A DNA stretch of 64,000 nucleotides from Candidatus Heimdallarchaeota archaeon. GTDB lineage: Archaea; Asgardarchaeota; Heimdallarchaeia; JABLTI01. Shown one piece after another: positions 37,961 through 46,525 of the stretch. A model generated the notes under the pieces. The model saw only the letters and a list, made by a program, of their open reading frames with translations, was not told where the DNA came from and did not search any database. Location of the stretch: the NCBI GenBank assembly GCA_019056785.1, contig DXJV01000085.1, positions 16,476-80,475 of the forward strand, written 5' to 3'. Within the stretch, counting starts at the first letter, position 1. Every line of letters starts with the position of its first letter. The position numbers and the translations under genes are program-made.

Positions 37961-38362
37961 TCAAAAAAAAATGCGAAAAAGCTCCTCAATCTCGTCCAAA
38001 TATCTTTTAGCTGATTGTGTTGCTAATCCTGCTCTCCGGGCTTTTTGTCCCTTAAACTTTAAGGCCATCGTGAAATGATCGGACCGGCAGATCAATAAAC
38101 TTCCTTGCTCCGTGCGAATATTCATATGTCGAAAATTATCTTGTGAGTCAATACTTTGGAGGGCTAAAAGAGAGCTAATGCTTCTGATGGTATCAATTAA
38201 CATTGCAGCTGTTCCTTCAACATTTATGGATCCTTTATGTTCATGGACACTACAACATGGCAAGCCTTCTTCTGTAGTAAGAACAATATCAGATGCGCCT
38301 GCTTTTTCCATCAGCTCTTGGAGCAGTTTTTCTGCTGTAACATTTATTGACTCATTGTTCAT
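37961..38362 (-). CDS. Roadblock/LC7 domain protein
   Basis: LLQELMEKAGASDIVLTTEEGLPCCSV...AAMLIDTIRSISSLLALQS...NIRTEQGSLLICRSDHFTMALKF. Confidence 0.68.
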   Translation of the reverse strand: MNNESINVTAEKLLQELMEKAGASDIVLTTEEGLPCCSVHEHKGSINVEGTAAMLIDTIRSISSLLALQSIDSQDNFRHMNIRTEQGSLLICRSDHFTMALKFKGQKARRAGLATQSAKRYLDEIEELFRIFF

Positions 38363-38513: not shown

Positions 38514-39269
38514 TCAGAATAATACTGGATAGGCAAGTTCGTGGAGTACCTCATATTTTTTCGGATCAAAGTCACTCTCGTCAAGCAACTCATTCAAAAA
38601 GCTAAACTCATATTCGTTAAGTCCCACAGGGAAGATTTTATGGTCAATGTCTTCTTTTGGCACTTCGAAAAAGCGTATTAATAATGGCCCAAGATAACCA
38701 GTTTCAACATAAATTTGTACAATCCAATGGAAATACTTCATAAGCTCTTTAATGGTTGTATGCTCAATTGCATCTGCAATGATATGGTACGAGCTCATCA
38801 AAGCTGCCCGGCGGGTGAGGTAATCTTTTGTGTTTCCAGCTTCGATAAGGTCTGGCAGCAGGTCAAGGTTTGCGTAAGAACTTAAAGCCATGATGACAGC
38901 ATATTGTAAATCTTCTTTGCTTTCGCGCAGAATTTTGAGAAGGATCGGAAGTGAATCTTGATGGCCAATACGCCCAAGCGTTTCTATCAGCGCTAATTTT
39001 TTCGCAAGAGAGGCTATTAATACCTCTGTGTGAATTCTTTGGATAAGTTCTTCTTGCGGTTTTCGCTCGTAGATTTTTGCTAGTGCCATCGAGCAGGCGT
39101 TTCTAACATTCCAAGAGCGGTCTTCAAGTCCCGCAAATAACACCTCGAGGGATTCTTTCCCACCGACTTCGAGAAGTTTTAACGCGCCACGAACACGGTC
39201 TATTTCTTTTTCAGACCCAAGACGCTTTTTCGCTTTGGAGCGTTGGAATGCTTTTTTAATAAATGCCAT
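38514..39269 (-). CDS. HEAT-repeat protein
   Basis: LKLLEVGGKESLEVLFAGLEDRSWNVRNACSMALAKI...LIETLGRIGHQDSLPILLKILRESKEDLQYAVIMALSSYA. Confidence 0.82.
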   Translation of the reverse strand: MAFIKKAFQRSKAKKRLGSEKEIDRVRGALKLLEVGGKESLEVLFAGLEDRSWNVRNACSMALAKIYERKPQEELIQRIHTEVLIASLAKKLALIETLGRIGHQDSLPILLKILRESKEDLQYAVIMALSSYANLDLLPDLIEAGNTKDYLTRRAALMSSYHIIADAIEHTTIKELMKYFHWIVQIYVETGYLGPLLIRFFEVPKEDIDHKIFPVGLNEYEFSFLNELLDESDFDPKKYEVLHELAYPVLF

Positions 39270-39271
39270 CT

Positions 39272-40876
39272 TTATTTGCCTCCATCCTCTTTTTGGCTGA
39301 CAATCTCCTCGATGAGAAGGCGTACCGCTGTTAATTTTGAATGGCTCATCTTCTTCAGATGAGAGTAATCAATATTTTTCTTCGAGCTTGAAACGCCATA
39401 AATTGCCTCTGATTTTCGCCCTGTATCTTCTTCGTCTCCTTTTTGTTCAGCTTTTTGTGCTGTAATGAAGTCGAAGAGCTCTTTTGATATATCAATTGCT
39501 CTGGTATAAATTGGTATGTCCCATGGAGAAATGGGATTATCCTCTAGATATCCCACAGAAAGTAATGTCCCGACAATCATTCTATCCATTTTTTTGAACA
39601 TAATCACATCAGGAAAGCCGGGTGTAGGCATTACAAAGTCCTGTCGGTAAAGCAGGCTATGATTATGGAGGATAAGTAATTGTTCAAGGCTGATAGATTC
39701 ATCGTCTATTTCGAAAACATAGACTGGTTTAGAGTTGACTTTTACATACCCATAAAATTGGAATGCCTTGCTATTTTCCAGCCATTGACCAACACTTCGG
39801 CATTGGTTTTTATTCAAGAATTTAATATAATCATCGAGTTGATCCCATTCATGTTCATAGATGTTCCAAGTTTTCCGCCAATAGCCACTTGTATCTGCAT
39901 GCCAATAGACATTTGTTGCTTGACTTGCTTCCCGAAGCTCTTTCAGGAGTCGTCGTACTTGGGCGCCGCCACCTGCTTTATTAATCAAGTCTAAATCGTT
40001 TGTTAATTGTAAGGTTTGCTTGATGATTTCTTGAGGTTGGTCTTTAATTTCTTCAAAGGCTTCTTCTAACATCCGGTAGGAAAGTTTGTTGATTGGAGGG
40101 CCATAAATTGGCTTGAGAAAGCGAGGAACTGTACTGAAAGGATATTCGCCTTTCTCGAGTATTTTTTCACCGATTTTCATATGGATGTAATTTGCAAATG
40201 CTTCTCTCAGGAAACCAGTGAGATGTTTCTTCTTTACAAGTTCAGCCCGTTTATTGAGAATGGAAATCACTTCTAGTAGGAAGTTTTGAAAGAGCGAGAC
40301 CTTTCGGGAGCTTTCAGGAGGGACGTAGAATTCTTGCACACCAAAAGAGGAGAGCAAACGAATAACCGCCACCATGTCTTGGAAATAGGGCAAGCCCCAG
40401 GTGGCATTTTTGGTTTCTTTTAAACCATATACGTTATTTACAATTAACTCTTTGATGATCATATCTATTCTATAGATTTCAGAAAGAATCTCACTGTCGT
40501 TAGAGGCACTTTTCTCTGCAAAATAGGCGTGAGCAAAAGCATGGATGAACATCATTCGTAATGTGAAATCTCTGTCTGGACTCTCTTTGAACTCAAAAGG
40601 CAAGCTAAGATAAATCATTGTTGGCTTACTTGGAAAGACAGATATGCATTCATCGGGGAGGAAGTTTCTATTGCGGGATTTCCGTAAATTGTCAATCATT
40701 TCTTGGGAGAGTACGGCAAACGGACTGCCACCTAATTCGATTACTTGGTAAAGGCTCGCATGAAGGTCGGGGTCAATGAAGAGAAGGACCTTATAGTCCT
40801 CCGGTGTTTCGCCGACAAATTCTTGGAAGTCTTTTCGTGCTTGTTTATAAATTTCAACCACTCGCGGATTGTCCAA
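39272..40876 (-). CDS. SpoVR-like protein (divergent)
   Basis: FIHAFAHAYFAEKSASND near the SpoVR IAHAxxGHNxFF position; LREAFANYIHMKIGEKILEKGEYPF resembles SpoVR NEGWAxFWHxxIMNxLxxEG; encoded beside PrkA-like and VWA genes. Confidence 0.5.
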   Translation of the reverse strand: MDNPRVVEIYKQARKDFQEFVGETPEDYKVLLFIDPDLHASLYQVIELGGSPFAVLSQEMIDNLRKSRNRNFLPDECISVFPSKPTMIYLSLPFEFKESPDRDFTLRMMFIHAFAHAYFAEKSASNDSEILSEIYRIDMIIKELIVNNVYGLKETKNATWGLPYFQDMVAVIRLLSSFGVQEFYVPPESSRKVSLFQNFLLEVISILNKRAELVKKKHLTGFLREAFANYIHMKIGEKILEKGEYPFSTVPRFLKPIYGPPINKLSYRMLEEAFEEIKDQPQEIIKQTLQLTNDLDLINKAGGGAQVRRLLKELREASQATNVYWHADTSGYWRKTWNIYEHEWDQLDDYIKFLNKNQCRSVGQWLENSKAFQFYGYVKVNSKPVYVFEIDDESISLEQLLILHNHSLLYRQDFVMPTPGFPDVIMFKKMDRMIVGTLLSVGYLEDNPISPWDIPIYTRAIDISKELFDFITAQKAEQKGDEEDTGRKSEAIYGVSSSKKNIDYSHLKKMSHSKLTAVRLLIEEIVSQKEDGGK

Positions 40877-42254
40877 GTCTCATACTCTCCGTTACAATTG
40901 TTTTTGCCAAAACATCCATCCTTGATGGATCAATAACAATAGGATAGGTTATTCCTCGCAAGGCTCTTCTTGTATCGCGATACAGGTCAGTAAGTTTTAG
41001 CCGTTCAGAGCCAATGATGAAATAAGAGACCTTCCATGTTCGGCTCTGGTCGCGTATGGCGTCCCGGAGTAAGCTATTAATTTCAAAGTAGCAATTTCGT
41101 GTTACCGGGTCAATCCCCCCTGAGCGTTCTTCTTCGAAGTAATTTATAAGACTCTGGGAGGGGGTAGGTTCATAGCCTGGGATAAGCTCATTCGGTCTGC
41201 CATCAGTAACAATAATTAAATGAACGTCTCGATTTTGGGTGTTTTTCTTGACTTTCGCGTGTTCTATTGCTGTTTTAATAGATGCACTCATTGGAGTTCG
41301 TCCTTTTGCTGTTGCTGTTAGCAGGAAACGTTCTAGCTGGTCCTCAGAAGTGATAATTTGCCTTGTTTTCGATATTGGTACAACAGCCGTTCGAAAGGCT
41401 CGCTGATTTGTCCTGCGAGTCCGTCCTTGTCGTTTGAAATAATAAAAGATCGCCAGTGAAGTTAGAAGCGCACCTTCCAGACGTGAAAAATGAGTCCCTT
41501 GAACAACATTCCTCATAGATTGCGAAGTGTCAACGATAAGATAGATTTGCGCATTTCGGTCCTTTTTCATGACAACAATATCATCAATATCGATAGACTT
41601 TGGGGGAATCGTCTGTGAGGTGAAAATAGAGTGTTCAAAGGTTTTTTTCTTGTGAATTTTTCCTCGAGGGCGTACAATTGTGTCATTGACCGGTCGTGCT
41701 GGAAGTTGTCGCGCTAACCAATTGCCAAGCTGGTTGCCGAGAAAGTCCATCACTTCTTCCCGTTTAATGCGCATTTTATGTCCAAATCTATCGGTGATTT
41801 CAATATCAGTCAATTCCTCAAGTGTGCGAAGTGACTCTGTGAGTTGTTTTTTGTATTCTGCTGTTCCTTCGAAGCCTTTCAAATGTCGCTGGATGAATTG
41901 TTCGATTTCCTCTCGTGTCTGCAATTCGCCCATGTTCACTTTTAATAAAGCATCCGGTAGTGCATTGTTGCCAATATACTCAAGTATTTCCAACTCGCGA
42001 ATCAAGTCTTCTTCCTCGAGTGGCTCCATTGGAGTGACCAGAAGCCTGTGTTGTATGTTTTTTACAGCAACGGCATTTTCAAGAGCCATACCTAAAACCA
42101 AAGCCTCACGTGAGCTCTGTCCTTTCCGGGGATCACGCCATTTCTGAAGGACACTTGCAGCATCGGCAAAGTCGAACACAAAATCAGGGTCACGCCACAC
42201 CATCAAAGGGTCTGTGAATCGCTCTCGACTGATTACGTGTATTCTGTGAGGCAT
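40854..42254 (-). CDS. VWA-domain protein with complete MIDAS
   Basis: IYLIVDTSQSMRN (DxSxS), ATAKGRTPMSASIKTAI (T), LIIVTDGRPNE (D); overlaps downstream gene by 23 bp. Confidence 0.85.
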   Translation of the reverse strand: MPHRIHVISRERFTDPLMVWRDPDFVFDFADAASVLQKWRDPRKGQSSREALVLGMALENAVAVKNIQHRLLVTPMEPLEEEDLIRELEILEYIGNNALPDALLKVNMGELQTREEIEQFIQRHLKGFEGTAEYKKQLTESLRTLEELTDIEITDRFGHKMRIKREEVMDFLGNQLGNWLARQLPARPVNDTIVRPRGKIHKKKTFEHSIFTSQTIPPKSIDIDDIVVMKKDRNAQIYLIVDTSQSMRNVVQGTHFSRLEGALLTSLAIFYYFKRQGRTRRTNQRAFRTAVVPISKTRQIITSEDQLERFLLTATAKGRTPMSASIKTAIEHAKVKKNTQNRDVHLIIVTDGRPNELIPGYEPTPSQSLINYFEEERSGGIDPVTRNCYFEINSLLRDAIRDQSRTWKVSYFIIGSERLKLTDLYRDTRRALRGITYPIVIDPSRMDVLAKTIVTESMRLGQSASG

Positions 42255-42305: not shown

Positions 42306-43868
42306 TTAGATATGGTCTACAAGTAGCAATTGTTCATAGCTTGGTTTTAATTGTGAAATGACCGCTTCTTGTATTTTCTTTGGCTGCTTTTCTAAGCCTT
42401 CATAAGCAATTATGATTTTACTTAGTTCCTCATCTGTCAATGCTTTCATTTTATCAATATCTTCAGAAATTGATTGCACCGTTGTCAGTTCCTCGTCAGT
42501 TTTAATAGTTCGTCGAAGCATGGTCTTTACTTCTTGCATAGCATCATTGATGAGGTTTCTTGGAATATCGAAGAGCTCGACAATGCGTTTTGCGTCATCT
42601 AATGTGAGCATTGCAACACTGTTTTGTTTATAAAACTCATCCTTTCGGAGAACGGTCTCACCAATGAGCGAATAAAGAGTACGTAAGTCAACATGAGGAG
42701 TCTTTTCGGGGTCATGAATTTCAATTAAAGATTTAAAGAACATATCTCGAGTAACTTTCTTACGAGCATAAGCTTCAGTTTCGCCGGATTTTAGTGCATT
42801 AGGAATTGAGAGGTCAGCCATCAAACCGATGAATTGAATTGCTAGTTTGCTGACACCTTTCTTACCAAATTGTTTTGTCTTCTCGAGAAGTGATACTAGG
42901 GCAGGATTTGCTGTCATATCATTTAAGCAGAGTGTTAAATGCTCTTTAAACATGTCTTCAACGATCTTGATACGTTCGAGTTTTGTTCTTGCTGGCCACA
43001 GAACTTCAGGAATACGATTGATAATTGGTTGTGCTTCTTCACCAAAAACACTAAGTGGAGCATTTGAAGTAAAGATCATTGCACCGTCTACGAAAACGGG
43101 TCGACCTTGAATACTATATTTGATACCGCTTGGGTCCTCGAGGAAACCCATTAAGGCTTCCAAGAAATTCAATGGTAAACGCTGGATTTCGTTCACAACA
43201 ACAAACCCTTGGGAGAGAACACCAACTTTATGTGCCATCGGAGAAAATGTTGTTGAAGTTTTGCCACCGAACAATTGCTCAAGGTTTTCCACCCCTGCGA
43301 GGAGCATGTATAGCCCTTCTGGGTCATTTCGAGGGTCAATTTGAGCAACATTTACAACAGTCTTGTCAGCTTTTACAGCGTTTAAAGCTTTTATGACTTG
43401 CTCTGTCTCGAGAGCTAAGATATCATTACTTCTGTCGAGATTAATATCTTGATTTGTCACTTTCTTAATCGACTCAGCGATATTTTGCTTACAGAAAGGA
43501 CAAAGATTCTTCAAGACTTCTGCAGAAGCAGCAGGATCCTTAGCATAATTTTCTGCAATATGAATAAGATACCCGGCATCTTCATTAAAGGGGCAACCAG
43601 CTATATGGTATTTCCGCTCATTAATAGCGTTTGTGAGATGCTTAAGGATTGTTCGAGCAAAAAGAGTCTTGGCTTCTCCAGTAGGACCAATTAATAAGAC
43701 CTTTCCAGAGACAGCAATCTTGTCCATCACAATTCCTTTCGAATGGACGTTTCCGCGAACAGCAGGATCTTCATTGATTTGTTTTCGCAATTCAGGCTCA
43801 TTTAATAATCTTCGAACAGAACATCCTTTATATCCTTTCTTCGCAAGGGACGCTATTGTCATCGTCAT
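42306..43868 (-). CDS. PrkA/MoxR-like AAA+ ATPase
   Basis: GKVLLIGPTGEAKTLFARTILKHL; IAGCPFNEDAGYLIHI...LKNLCPFCKQNI (PrkA-type GCPMHEEPLHL...DLCPxCR); QGFVVVNEIQRLPLNFLEALMGFLED; MIFTSNAPLSVFGEE. Confidence 0.85.
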   Translation of the reverse strand: MTMTIASLAKKGYKGCSVRRLLNEPELRKQINEDPAVRGNVHSKGIVMDKIAVSGKVLLIGPTGEAKTLFARTILKHLTNAINERKYHIAGCPFNEDAGYLIHIAENYAKDPAASAEVLKNLCPFCKQNIAESIKKVTNQDINLDRSNDILALETEQVIKALNAVKADKTVVNVAQIDPRNDPEGLYMLLAGVENLEQLFGGKTSTTFSPMAHKVGVLSQGFVVVNEIQRLPLNFLEALMGFLEDPSGIKYSIQGRPVFVDGAMIFTSNAPLSVFGEEAQPIINRIPEVLWPARTKLERIKIVEDMFKEHLTLCLNDMTANPALVSLLEKTKQFGKKGVSKLAIQFIGLMADLSIPNALKSGETEAYARKKVTRDMFFKSLIEIHDPEKTPHVDLRTLYSLIGETVLRKDEFYKQNSVAMLTLDDAKRIVELFDIPRNLINDAMQEVKTMLRRTIKTDEELTTVQSISEDIDKMKALTDEELSKIIIAYEGLEKQPKKIQEAVISQLKPSYEQLLLVDHI

Positions 43869-43906: not shown

Positions 43907-44455
43907 TCAATGCTTTTTTTCACTCTTTCTGGAAGAGGACTTCTTTTTAAGTACTTTGGGTTTAATCCCAAGAGTTTCAATGTACATATCCAGCCATTCC
44001 AAACAGGCCAGTATGTCTTCTTTTTTATTTTCATGAATTTCTAAAACATTCCAGAGTCGATCTGTCAGACGAATGAGAGAAAAGGCTTCGATAATCTCTG
44101 ATTTTGTTAGAGCAATGGCTTTTTCAGCATTGTAACTCGCAATGAGGATGGGTATGTTTGCGGTTCGAGTGTCCCAAACGAATGTCTCCCAGAGGAATTC
44201 CTTAATCTTTGAAAGTTCGTCCATCTTTGTCGCGTTTACGATAAATATTGCACCATCGGTTTTTTTCAACACCGAGTCTGGTATCGTTCTATCAAAATCC
44301 GGTTCCTCAATAGAAAAGGTGTAATGCGGAATGTTCTCTTTTGGATTCTTCACTTCTTCTTTGATGATGTTGATAATGTAGTCTCGAGTGTCATTCTTTT
44401 CACCAAGTAAGAGAATATGTTTGGGTGGTTTTTGTCGTTTGAACATTGTTTTCAC
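43907..44455 (-). CDS. Arf-like small GTPase fold with degenerate nucleotide-binding motifs (pseudo-GTPase)
   Basis: KHILLLGEKNDTRDYIINII (P-loop lacks GK[S/T]); KKTDGAIFIVNATKMDELSKIKEFLWETF; ANIPILIASYNAEKAIALTKSEIIEAFSLIRLTDRLWNVLEI (NKxD lost). Confidence 0.65.
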   Translation of the reverse strand: MKTMFKRQKPPKHILLLGEKNDTRDYIINIIKEEVKNPKENIPHYTFSIEEPDFDRTIPDSVLKKTDGAIFIVNATKMDELSKIKEFLWETFVWDTRTANIPILIASYNAEKAIALTKSEIIEAFSLIRLTDRLWNVLEIHENKKEDILACLEWLDMYIETLGIKPKVLKKKSSSRKSEKKH

Positions 44456-45463: not shown

Positions 45464-46525
45464 TTATTTCTTAGTTTCAGCTTTCATTCGTGATTGTGCT
45501 ATGAGTTCAAAACCCATGGCGTTGCACATTACGGGATTATCTGGAATAACAACTTCATCCGGTGACTTAACAATATTGGATTCCCACATCTTTTGTTTCA
45601 GCACTTCACCGAAAACATGAGCACCACCACCGGTAAGTATCACGCGTTCAATCCAAGCATCAGGTGGTAGGGTTCCCAATAATCTCGAGGTTTCATCGAT
45701 GATTATTTCTGAAATGTTTTCGATGTAATAATTCTTCACTTCAGAGACATCGAATTGTTGGCCACTTACCATGACCGCTGAAAGATTCTTCTCGATGGTC
45801 TTCATTAAATCAAAGGGCCGGATGATCTTTCCTGTTTGTTCTTGCAAAGTTCGAGCCATCCGTGTTGTGAGGGTGTCAACAGCTTCTTCTAAGCTCCCAC
45901 TTGCGGTTCGCATCAATCTTCCTTGATATACTGTAAGAATGTCTGTGGAGCCATGACCAATGTCTACAATAATCGCATCAACAGCACGATTTTCACCAGA
46001 TGTTTTCAAAATTTGATAATAAGAGCCATAGGGTTCTGGTAAGACAAGGCATTTCTCAACCACAACATTATAATTGAGCGTTTCTCCAGTGGCATCGTTG
46101 CGTACTTTAATGTTCATCTCTTCGGAGAGTCCTTTGGAGAGCGTGGACATTTCTTCTTGTGAAGTTGCCACAGGCACACCTGTCGCAATAAGAATATGTT
46201 CGCCATCATTTTTAATGAAAAGAGAAAGCGCTGCTTTAATGGCTATCACAGCATCTTTAATGCTTTTCATTTTTCCTTCCGAAGCTAAGGGACGTTTAAT
46301 TTCACTTTGTAAGCGTGCTAATTCACCCACGAAGAAGTTTTGACCTCCTTCCTCCAGTACCAGGTTGTTTTCCAATGACTTGTCAAGAGTCATGCCAGTC
46401 CAACCAGGATTCGGATCACCAATGATTGAGGGAATTCGTATCAATTTCTTTCCGGTGTCCGAAGACATTTTAATAGTACTAGTTCCCAAGTCAATTCCGA
46501 CAGTTCGTAATACTTTTTTTGACAC
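45464..46525 (-). CDS. Actin-like ATPase (Ta0583/ParM-like archaeal family)
   Basis: VGIDLGTSTIKMSSD (phosphate 1); AIIVDIGHGSTDILTVYQGRL (phosphate 2); ERVILTGGGAHVFGEVL (adenosine). Confidence 0.85.
   Translation of the reverse strand: MSKKVLRTVGIDLGTSTIKMSSDTGKKLIRIPSIIGDPNPGWTGMTLDKSLENNLVLEEGGQNFFVGELARLQSEIKRPLASEGKMKSIKDAVIAIKAALSLFIKNDGEHILIATGVPVATSQEEMSTLSKGLSEEMNIKVRNDATGETLNYNVVVEKCLVLPEPYGSYYQILKTSGENRAVDAIIVDIGHGSTDILTVYQGRLMRTASGSLEEAVDTLTTRMARTLQEQTGKIIRPFDLMKTIEKNLSAVMVSGQQFDVSEVKNYYIENISEIIIDETSRLLGTLPPDAWIERVILTGGGAHVFGEVLKQKMWESNIVKSPDEVVIPDNPVMCNAMGFELIAQSRMKAETKK

Follow-up and report, generated by a model that had tools for sequence, protein, structure and literature searches.

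A degenerate member of the Arf family, here termed GTPL, heads a conserved five-gene block in the archaeal class Heimdallarchaeia. With somewhat better than even confidence, we favor a model where GTPL is a class I pseudoGTPase that lost GTP binding a single time and acts, independently of nucleotide, as a constitutive adaptor or anchor for a machine composed of the other block products, namely an AAA+ ATPase, a vWA protein, a 534-residue protein (P534) and a HEAT-repeat protein. More tentatively, we put forward the broader proposal that a five-protein AAA+/vWA remodelling complex specific to the class Heimdallarchaeia includes this ancient archaeal pseudo-Arf as a fixed subunit. The adaptor role is suggested by gene linkage and motif loss, with known systems serving as analogy.

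The window, which is the entire 64,000-nucleotide stretch that was analysed, comes from a Heimdallarchaeia genome and contains a confirmed open reading frame at positions 43907-44455 on the reverse strand. Both peptides quoted in the original prediction are found in this frame. It can be read from a GTG codon at 44455, but translation probably begins at the ATG at 44446, because same-genus orthologs begin with MFK and two of these carry an in-frame stop just upstream. The resulting GTPL gene (43907..44446, reverse strand) codes for 179 amino acids.

Several profile comparisons tie the protein to the Arf family. The Pfam Arf model (PF00025) matches residues 62-158 with a score of 30.7 bits (cut-off 22.3, E=2.7e-7), and 24 of 30 GTPL orthologs have a Pfam Arf match of their own. 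When a GTPL family profile was compared with all PDB sequences, ARL3 was the top match (E=2.3e-11) and Arf or ARL proteins made up almost all of the 60 matches listed, with some alignments starting in the P-loop region and reaching the last helix. With 29 intact Asgard Arf proteins and related small GTPases as input, a HMMER profile picks up every one of the 30 orthologs at E<=0.4 (22 at E<=2.4e-7). The same profile detects none of 180 reversed or shuffled sequences at E<=10, which rules out a chance resemblance. On the basis of these homologies, we conclude that GTPL descends from the Arf family.

An AlphaFold model of GTPL made from a six-sequence alignment is poor (pLDDT 50, pTM 0.43) due to the small number of sequences, and the fold assignment thus rests on sequence homology. 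The proposal of an Arf-like fold therefore stands with regard to ancestry, as judged by Pfam, the PDB profile search and the decoys, whereas its structural part is left with a low-confidence prediction. Comparison of this model with known structures, which had been suggested as a check, gave Arl2 as the first PDB match (E=0.006) and HodArfR1 as the fourth, but the confidence of the model limits the weight of this outcome.

Loss of the nucleotide-binding motifs is uniform. The P-loop motif GxxxxGK[ST] is present in none of the 30 orthologs, all of which are from Heimdallarchaeia. The corresponding position reads GEKNDTRD in the window and GDNNPATR in family f4, and is a shortened GNTSP loop in family f3. 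Gly15, which is invariant across the 30 sequences, is the sole P-loop residue kept. The NKxD motif expected at the end of beta-5 fails as well, the aligned residues being SYNAE, AYNSN or IPDSS, and matches to the NKxD pattern elsewhere in the orthologs are out of register. Neither a switch II WDxGGQ nor a DxxG motif occurs ahead of the FDG strand in the alignment. The original prediction named GEKNDTRD and SYNAE as the replacements for the P-loop and NKxD motifs, and both indeed sit at the aligned motif positions. It also asked whether homologs in the same operon are uniformly degenerate, and the count above bears this out; a search of the 30 orthologs for an intact P-loop, which would speak against the prediction, yielded none.

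The amino termini of GTPL proteins vary by family (MFKxxKPP, MTNFIQN and MKDLLKY), and there is no general Gly2, a residue that often accompanies the N-terminal amphipathic helix of Arf proteins. The invariant residues (G15, W86, L113, E120, L124, R126, D129 and R130) fall mostly in the Arf-like C-terminal half, where an FWE or LWE helix and a SLIRLTDRxW segment are retained. With the P-loop, DxxG and NKxD motifs all absent, GTPL is predicted not to operate as an Arf switch, and by sequence it matches the definition of a class I pseudoGTPase, which is a small-GTPase relative that lacks the binding motifs. Conservation of G15 in 30 of 30 sequences might indicate that GTPL still binds a nucleotide or other small ligand via an altered pocket. 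We regard this as improbable, given that the P-loop Lys and Ser/Thr, DxxG and NKxD are all gone, and that the residues at the motif sites vary among families, including the shorter loop of f3.

When 20 GTPL and 29 intact sequences were placed in a tree, a branch with support values of 100/99 set all GTPL proteins apart from the intact ones, although long branches keep us from naming any intact paralog as the sister of GTPL. The existence of a single clade indicates that the motif loss is old. Read most simply, the tree points to a single loss of the GTP-binding motifs that preceded the split of the Heimdallarchaeia carrier families. From the only pair of sequences with unsaturated dS, the dN/dS ratio (omega) of GTPL is about 0.12, compared with 0.03-0.08 for its operon partners in the same pair. 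These values indicate purifying selection that is somewhat relaxed, and GTPL and the HEAT protein are the fastest-evolving members of the block. Motif loss is the one observation that would fit a decaying pseudogene, and this explanation is contradicted by the open frames and single clade found class-wide, the omega value and the invariant residues, such that we give it almost no credence.

The original prediction that GTPL heads an AAA+/vWA operon turned out to be stronger than claimed, owing to a gene order that holds class-wide. In the window, the genes are arranged as GTPL-AAA+-vWA-P534-HEAT on one strand, beginning with a 38 bp gap between the end of GTPL and the AAA+ gene, followed by a 51 bp gap, an overlap and a 2 bp gap. 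The loci inspected in families f1, f3 and f4 have the identical five-gene order. The outer neighbours in f4 differ, with Nudix-like and unrelated genes upstream and an excinuclease-like gene downstream (named by eye from sequence). Of the 37 genomes with both genes, coordinates place GTPL immediately upstream of AAA+ in 32, and the two are unlinked in the other five (G011, G015, G022, G040 and G044).

Among 59 genomes of the class, counted with kinship ignored, both genes are present in 37, only the AAA+ gene in 3, only GTPL in 3 and neither in 16. In some of the exceptions (G002, G006, G036 and G052), the gene is located at a contig end or on a short contig. Neither gene occurs in families f2 and f7. 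Their profile matches, considered as possible GTPL orthologs, were rejected because they belong to the ordinary Arf GTPases, have an intact P-loop and are not members of the block. Two f6 genomes have the AAA+ gene and no detectable GTPL, and one of three f6 genomes has an even more reduced GTPL relative 10 kb from AAA+. The unlinked genomes and the f6 genomes with AAA+ but no GTPL suggest that GTPL may not be obligatory. An f6 locus (L130 2262-2738) codes for a 158-amino-acid GTPL relative that is degenerate past Pfam recognition.

The second gene of the block (42306..43868, reverse strand) codes for a MoxR/AAA_5-like AAA+ ATPase of 520 amino acids. Its Pfam matches to AAA_5 and Sigma54_activat are weak, with AAA_5 scoring 20.6 bits for the window protein (cut-off 22), yet they are seen in nearly all orthologs. 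The Walker A motif (GPTGEAKT in the window) is kept in all aligned sequences, with one variant reading GVTSEGKS. Walker B is VVNE, wherein Asn replaces Asp to give NE for DE in 16 of 16 aligned orthologs, and ATP hydrolysis may be altered as a consequence. The adjoining gene (40854..42254, reverse strand) codes for a 466-amino-acid vWA protein that matches Pfam VWA_2 and VWA_CoxE and resembles CoxE and chelatase subunits. Its MIDAS residues (D242xS244xS246, T320 and D351) are invariant in the ortholog alignment. Thus, a Walker A-containing AAA+ protein is encoded next to a vWA protein with the MIDAS pattern DxSxS...T...D, as is characteristic of MoxR-type pairs. However, the AAA+ protein departs from the MoxR Walker B pattern (hhhhDE) and falls short of the family score, and so we do not file it as MoxR. 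By composition, the operon appears to resemble a MoxR/vWA machine.

P534 (39272..40876, reverse strand) is linked to the block by its co-distribution with AAA+, since the two share exactly the same 40 of 228 genomes of the phylum. It represents a class-wide family of 500-aa proteins with no significant relatives in Pfam, NCBIfam or the PDB, and its AlphaFold model is unusable (pLDDT 37). Two of its sequences, HAFAH at about residue 112 and EGFA at about residue 225, have the look of a metal-site remnant in f1 and f4 and are changed in f3. The last block gene (38514..39269, reverse strand), assigned by synteny, codes for a 251-amino-acid HEAT-repeat protein (Pfam HEAT_2, E=2.8e-17). A Roadblock/LC7 protein (37961..38362, reverse strand; Pfam Robl_LC7 above cut-off) is encoded 151 bp downstream of the block. 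Roadblock proteins are common regulators of small GTPases. This linkage is confined to the window's own genus (L038, L041, L042 and L058), and membership of the gene in the block is uncertain.

Other genes are found nearby. An actin-like protein (ALP_N and MreB-like_C domains; window positions 45464-46525) shows high conservation (88% within the genus), and in the inspected loci of the genus its gene lies two genes away from GTPL. In genome G022 (L043 622-2758), the GTPL gene is followed by genes for a ParB_N-like protein and then a protein with an E2/UEV domain (UQ_con, E=2.1e-9) that resembles Vps23 of ESCRT-I, and an FKBP-like gene adjoins AAA+. In f3 (L047 3515-4852, L048 6733-7392 and L049 10855-12288), genes for a membrane FKBP and for a ParB_N-like protein are recurrent neighbours of GTPL or AAA+.

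Loss of the binding motifs, together with the place of GTPL as first gene of a conserved AAA+ unit, suggests that the protein probably works not as a switch but as a fixed part for docking. The five proteins would form a physical complex in which the AAA+ protein makes a MoxR-like ring, the vWA protein is a co-chaperone, the HEAT protein is a scaffold and P534 is a further, large component. The most conserved Arf face of GTPL, comprising the FWE helix and SLIRLTDRxW, might be its docking surface for an operon partner, and the AAA+/vWA pair would exert force on a client presented by GTPL or P534.

Alternatively, GTPL might itself be a client that the machine folds, activates or disassembles, either by itself or in a GTPL-containing complex. 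MoxR/vWA pairs are known to work on dedicated targets, as exemplified by NorQD, which remodels its target NOR through ATP-driven force (PMC13036017). The comparatively fast evolution of GTPL and the HEAT protein, and the carriers in which GTPL is unlinked or missing, are also compatible with a client. However, no catalytic or cofactor site in need of activation is recognisable in GTPL, and the constant first place of GTPL in the block suggests a fixed tie to the machine. We therefore judge this main alternative to be unlikely.

A further explanation is that GTPL pairs with an intact Arf or holds its effector, and that the machine acts on the intact GTPase. Arf-like GTPases are numerous in each Heimdall genome (the window's genome has 28 PF00025 matches), and septin hetero-oligomers include degenerate pseudoGTPases (PMC10731463). 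Since the conserved block has no gene for an intact GTPase, and genomes that lack GTPL have intact Arfs yet no block, such a partner or decoy seems less likely still than a client. Our preferred reading continues to be that GTPL is an adaptor or anchor of the machine.

Heimdallarchaeia are Asgard archaea close to eukaryotes, and research on Asgard archaea addresses how the small-GTPase networks of eukaryotes arose. The numerous Arf-like genes of Asgard archaea are usually tallied as switches. A class-wide group of non-switch orthologs tied to an ATPase operon would mean that these tallies include structural parts. If GTPL is truly a fixed-subunit pseudo-Arf, then nucleotide-free structural reuse of a small GTPase was not a eukaryotic invention, and the five-protein complex would represent a new type of MoxR/vWA machine. 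The block is a defined five-gene unit that is open to expression and structure solution. No report of an archaeal pseudo-Arf was found in the literature searched, which took in a minority of subscription papers.

Compared to Asgard Arf-family GTPases such as HodArfR1 (PDB 8ouk/8oul; PF00025), GTPL exhibits profile homology over most of its length, best in the C-terminal half, but no ortholog retains the P-loop, the switch DxxG or NKxD, and GTPL forms a separate clade. PseudoGTPase classes have been laid out previously (PMC12722892), and degenerate small GTPases with structural roles are known in eukaryotes, including p190RhoGAP (PMC5593906) and CENP-M, a pseudo GTPase that acts as a structural subunit of the kinetochore (PMC4080450). 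CENP-M and GTPL are both small-GTPase relatives, of which the former is unable to bind GTP and the latter is predicted to be so from motif loss. However, CENP-M is eukaryotic and has no AAA+/vWA pair encoded alongside, whereas GTPL is archaeal and Arf-derived, and its complex is a proposed one.

The block is similar in order to the prkA-yeaH-spoVR operon, which encodes an AAA+ type ATPase, YeaH/DUF444 (which we take to be vWA-like) and a third protein of about 500 amino acids. Because of this order of genes and a short stretch of P534 that resembles SpoVR (DLIxEGFAxYI), homology was assessed by hhalign, with seven sequences of SpoVR and six each of PrkA and YeaH. The resulting P-values of 0.01-0.4 do not support homology for the three block proteins.

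As in NorQ/NorD, CbbQ/CbbO and RavA/ViaA, adjacent genes code for AAA+ and vWA proteins with intact Walker A and MIDAS motifs. The Heimdallarchaeia block differs in its sub-cut-off AAA_5 score, its Walker B Asp to Asn change and its three extra partners. Ternary vWA-MoxR systems combine AAA+ and vWA proteins with a third conserved protein, which in the iSTAND case is a catalytically inactive NTPase (PMC7159879). The VMAP/iSTAND signature is not apparent here, as P534 belongs to no Pfam family and the vWA protein is near 460 amino acids in all cases with no extra domain. The predicted inactive NTPase of this block is instead of the small-GTPase type, with P534 as a partner of no detected family. 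Moreover, known ternary systems vary in their effectors, whereas the Heimdallarchaeia gene set is constant and class-wide.
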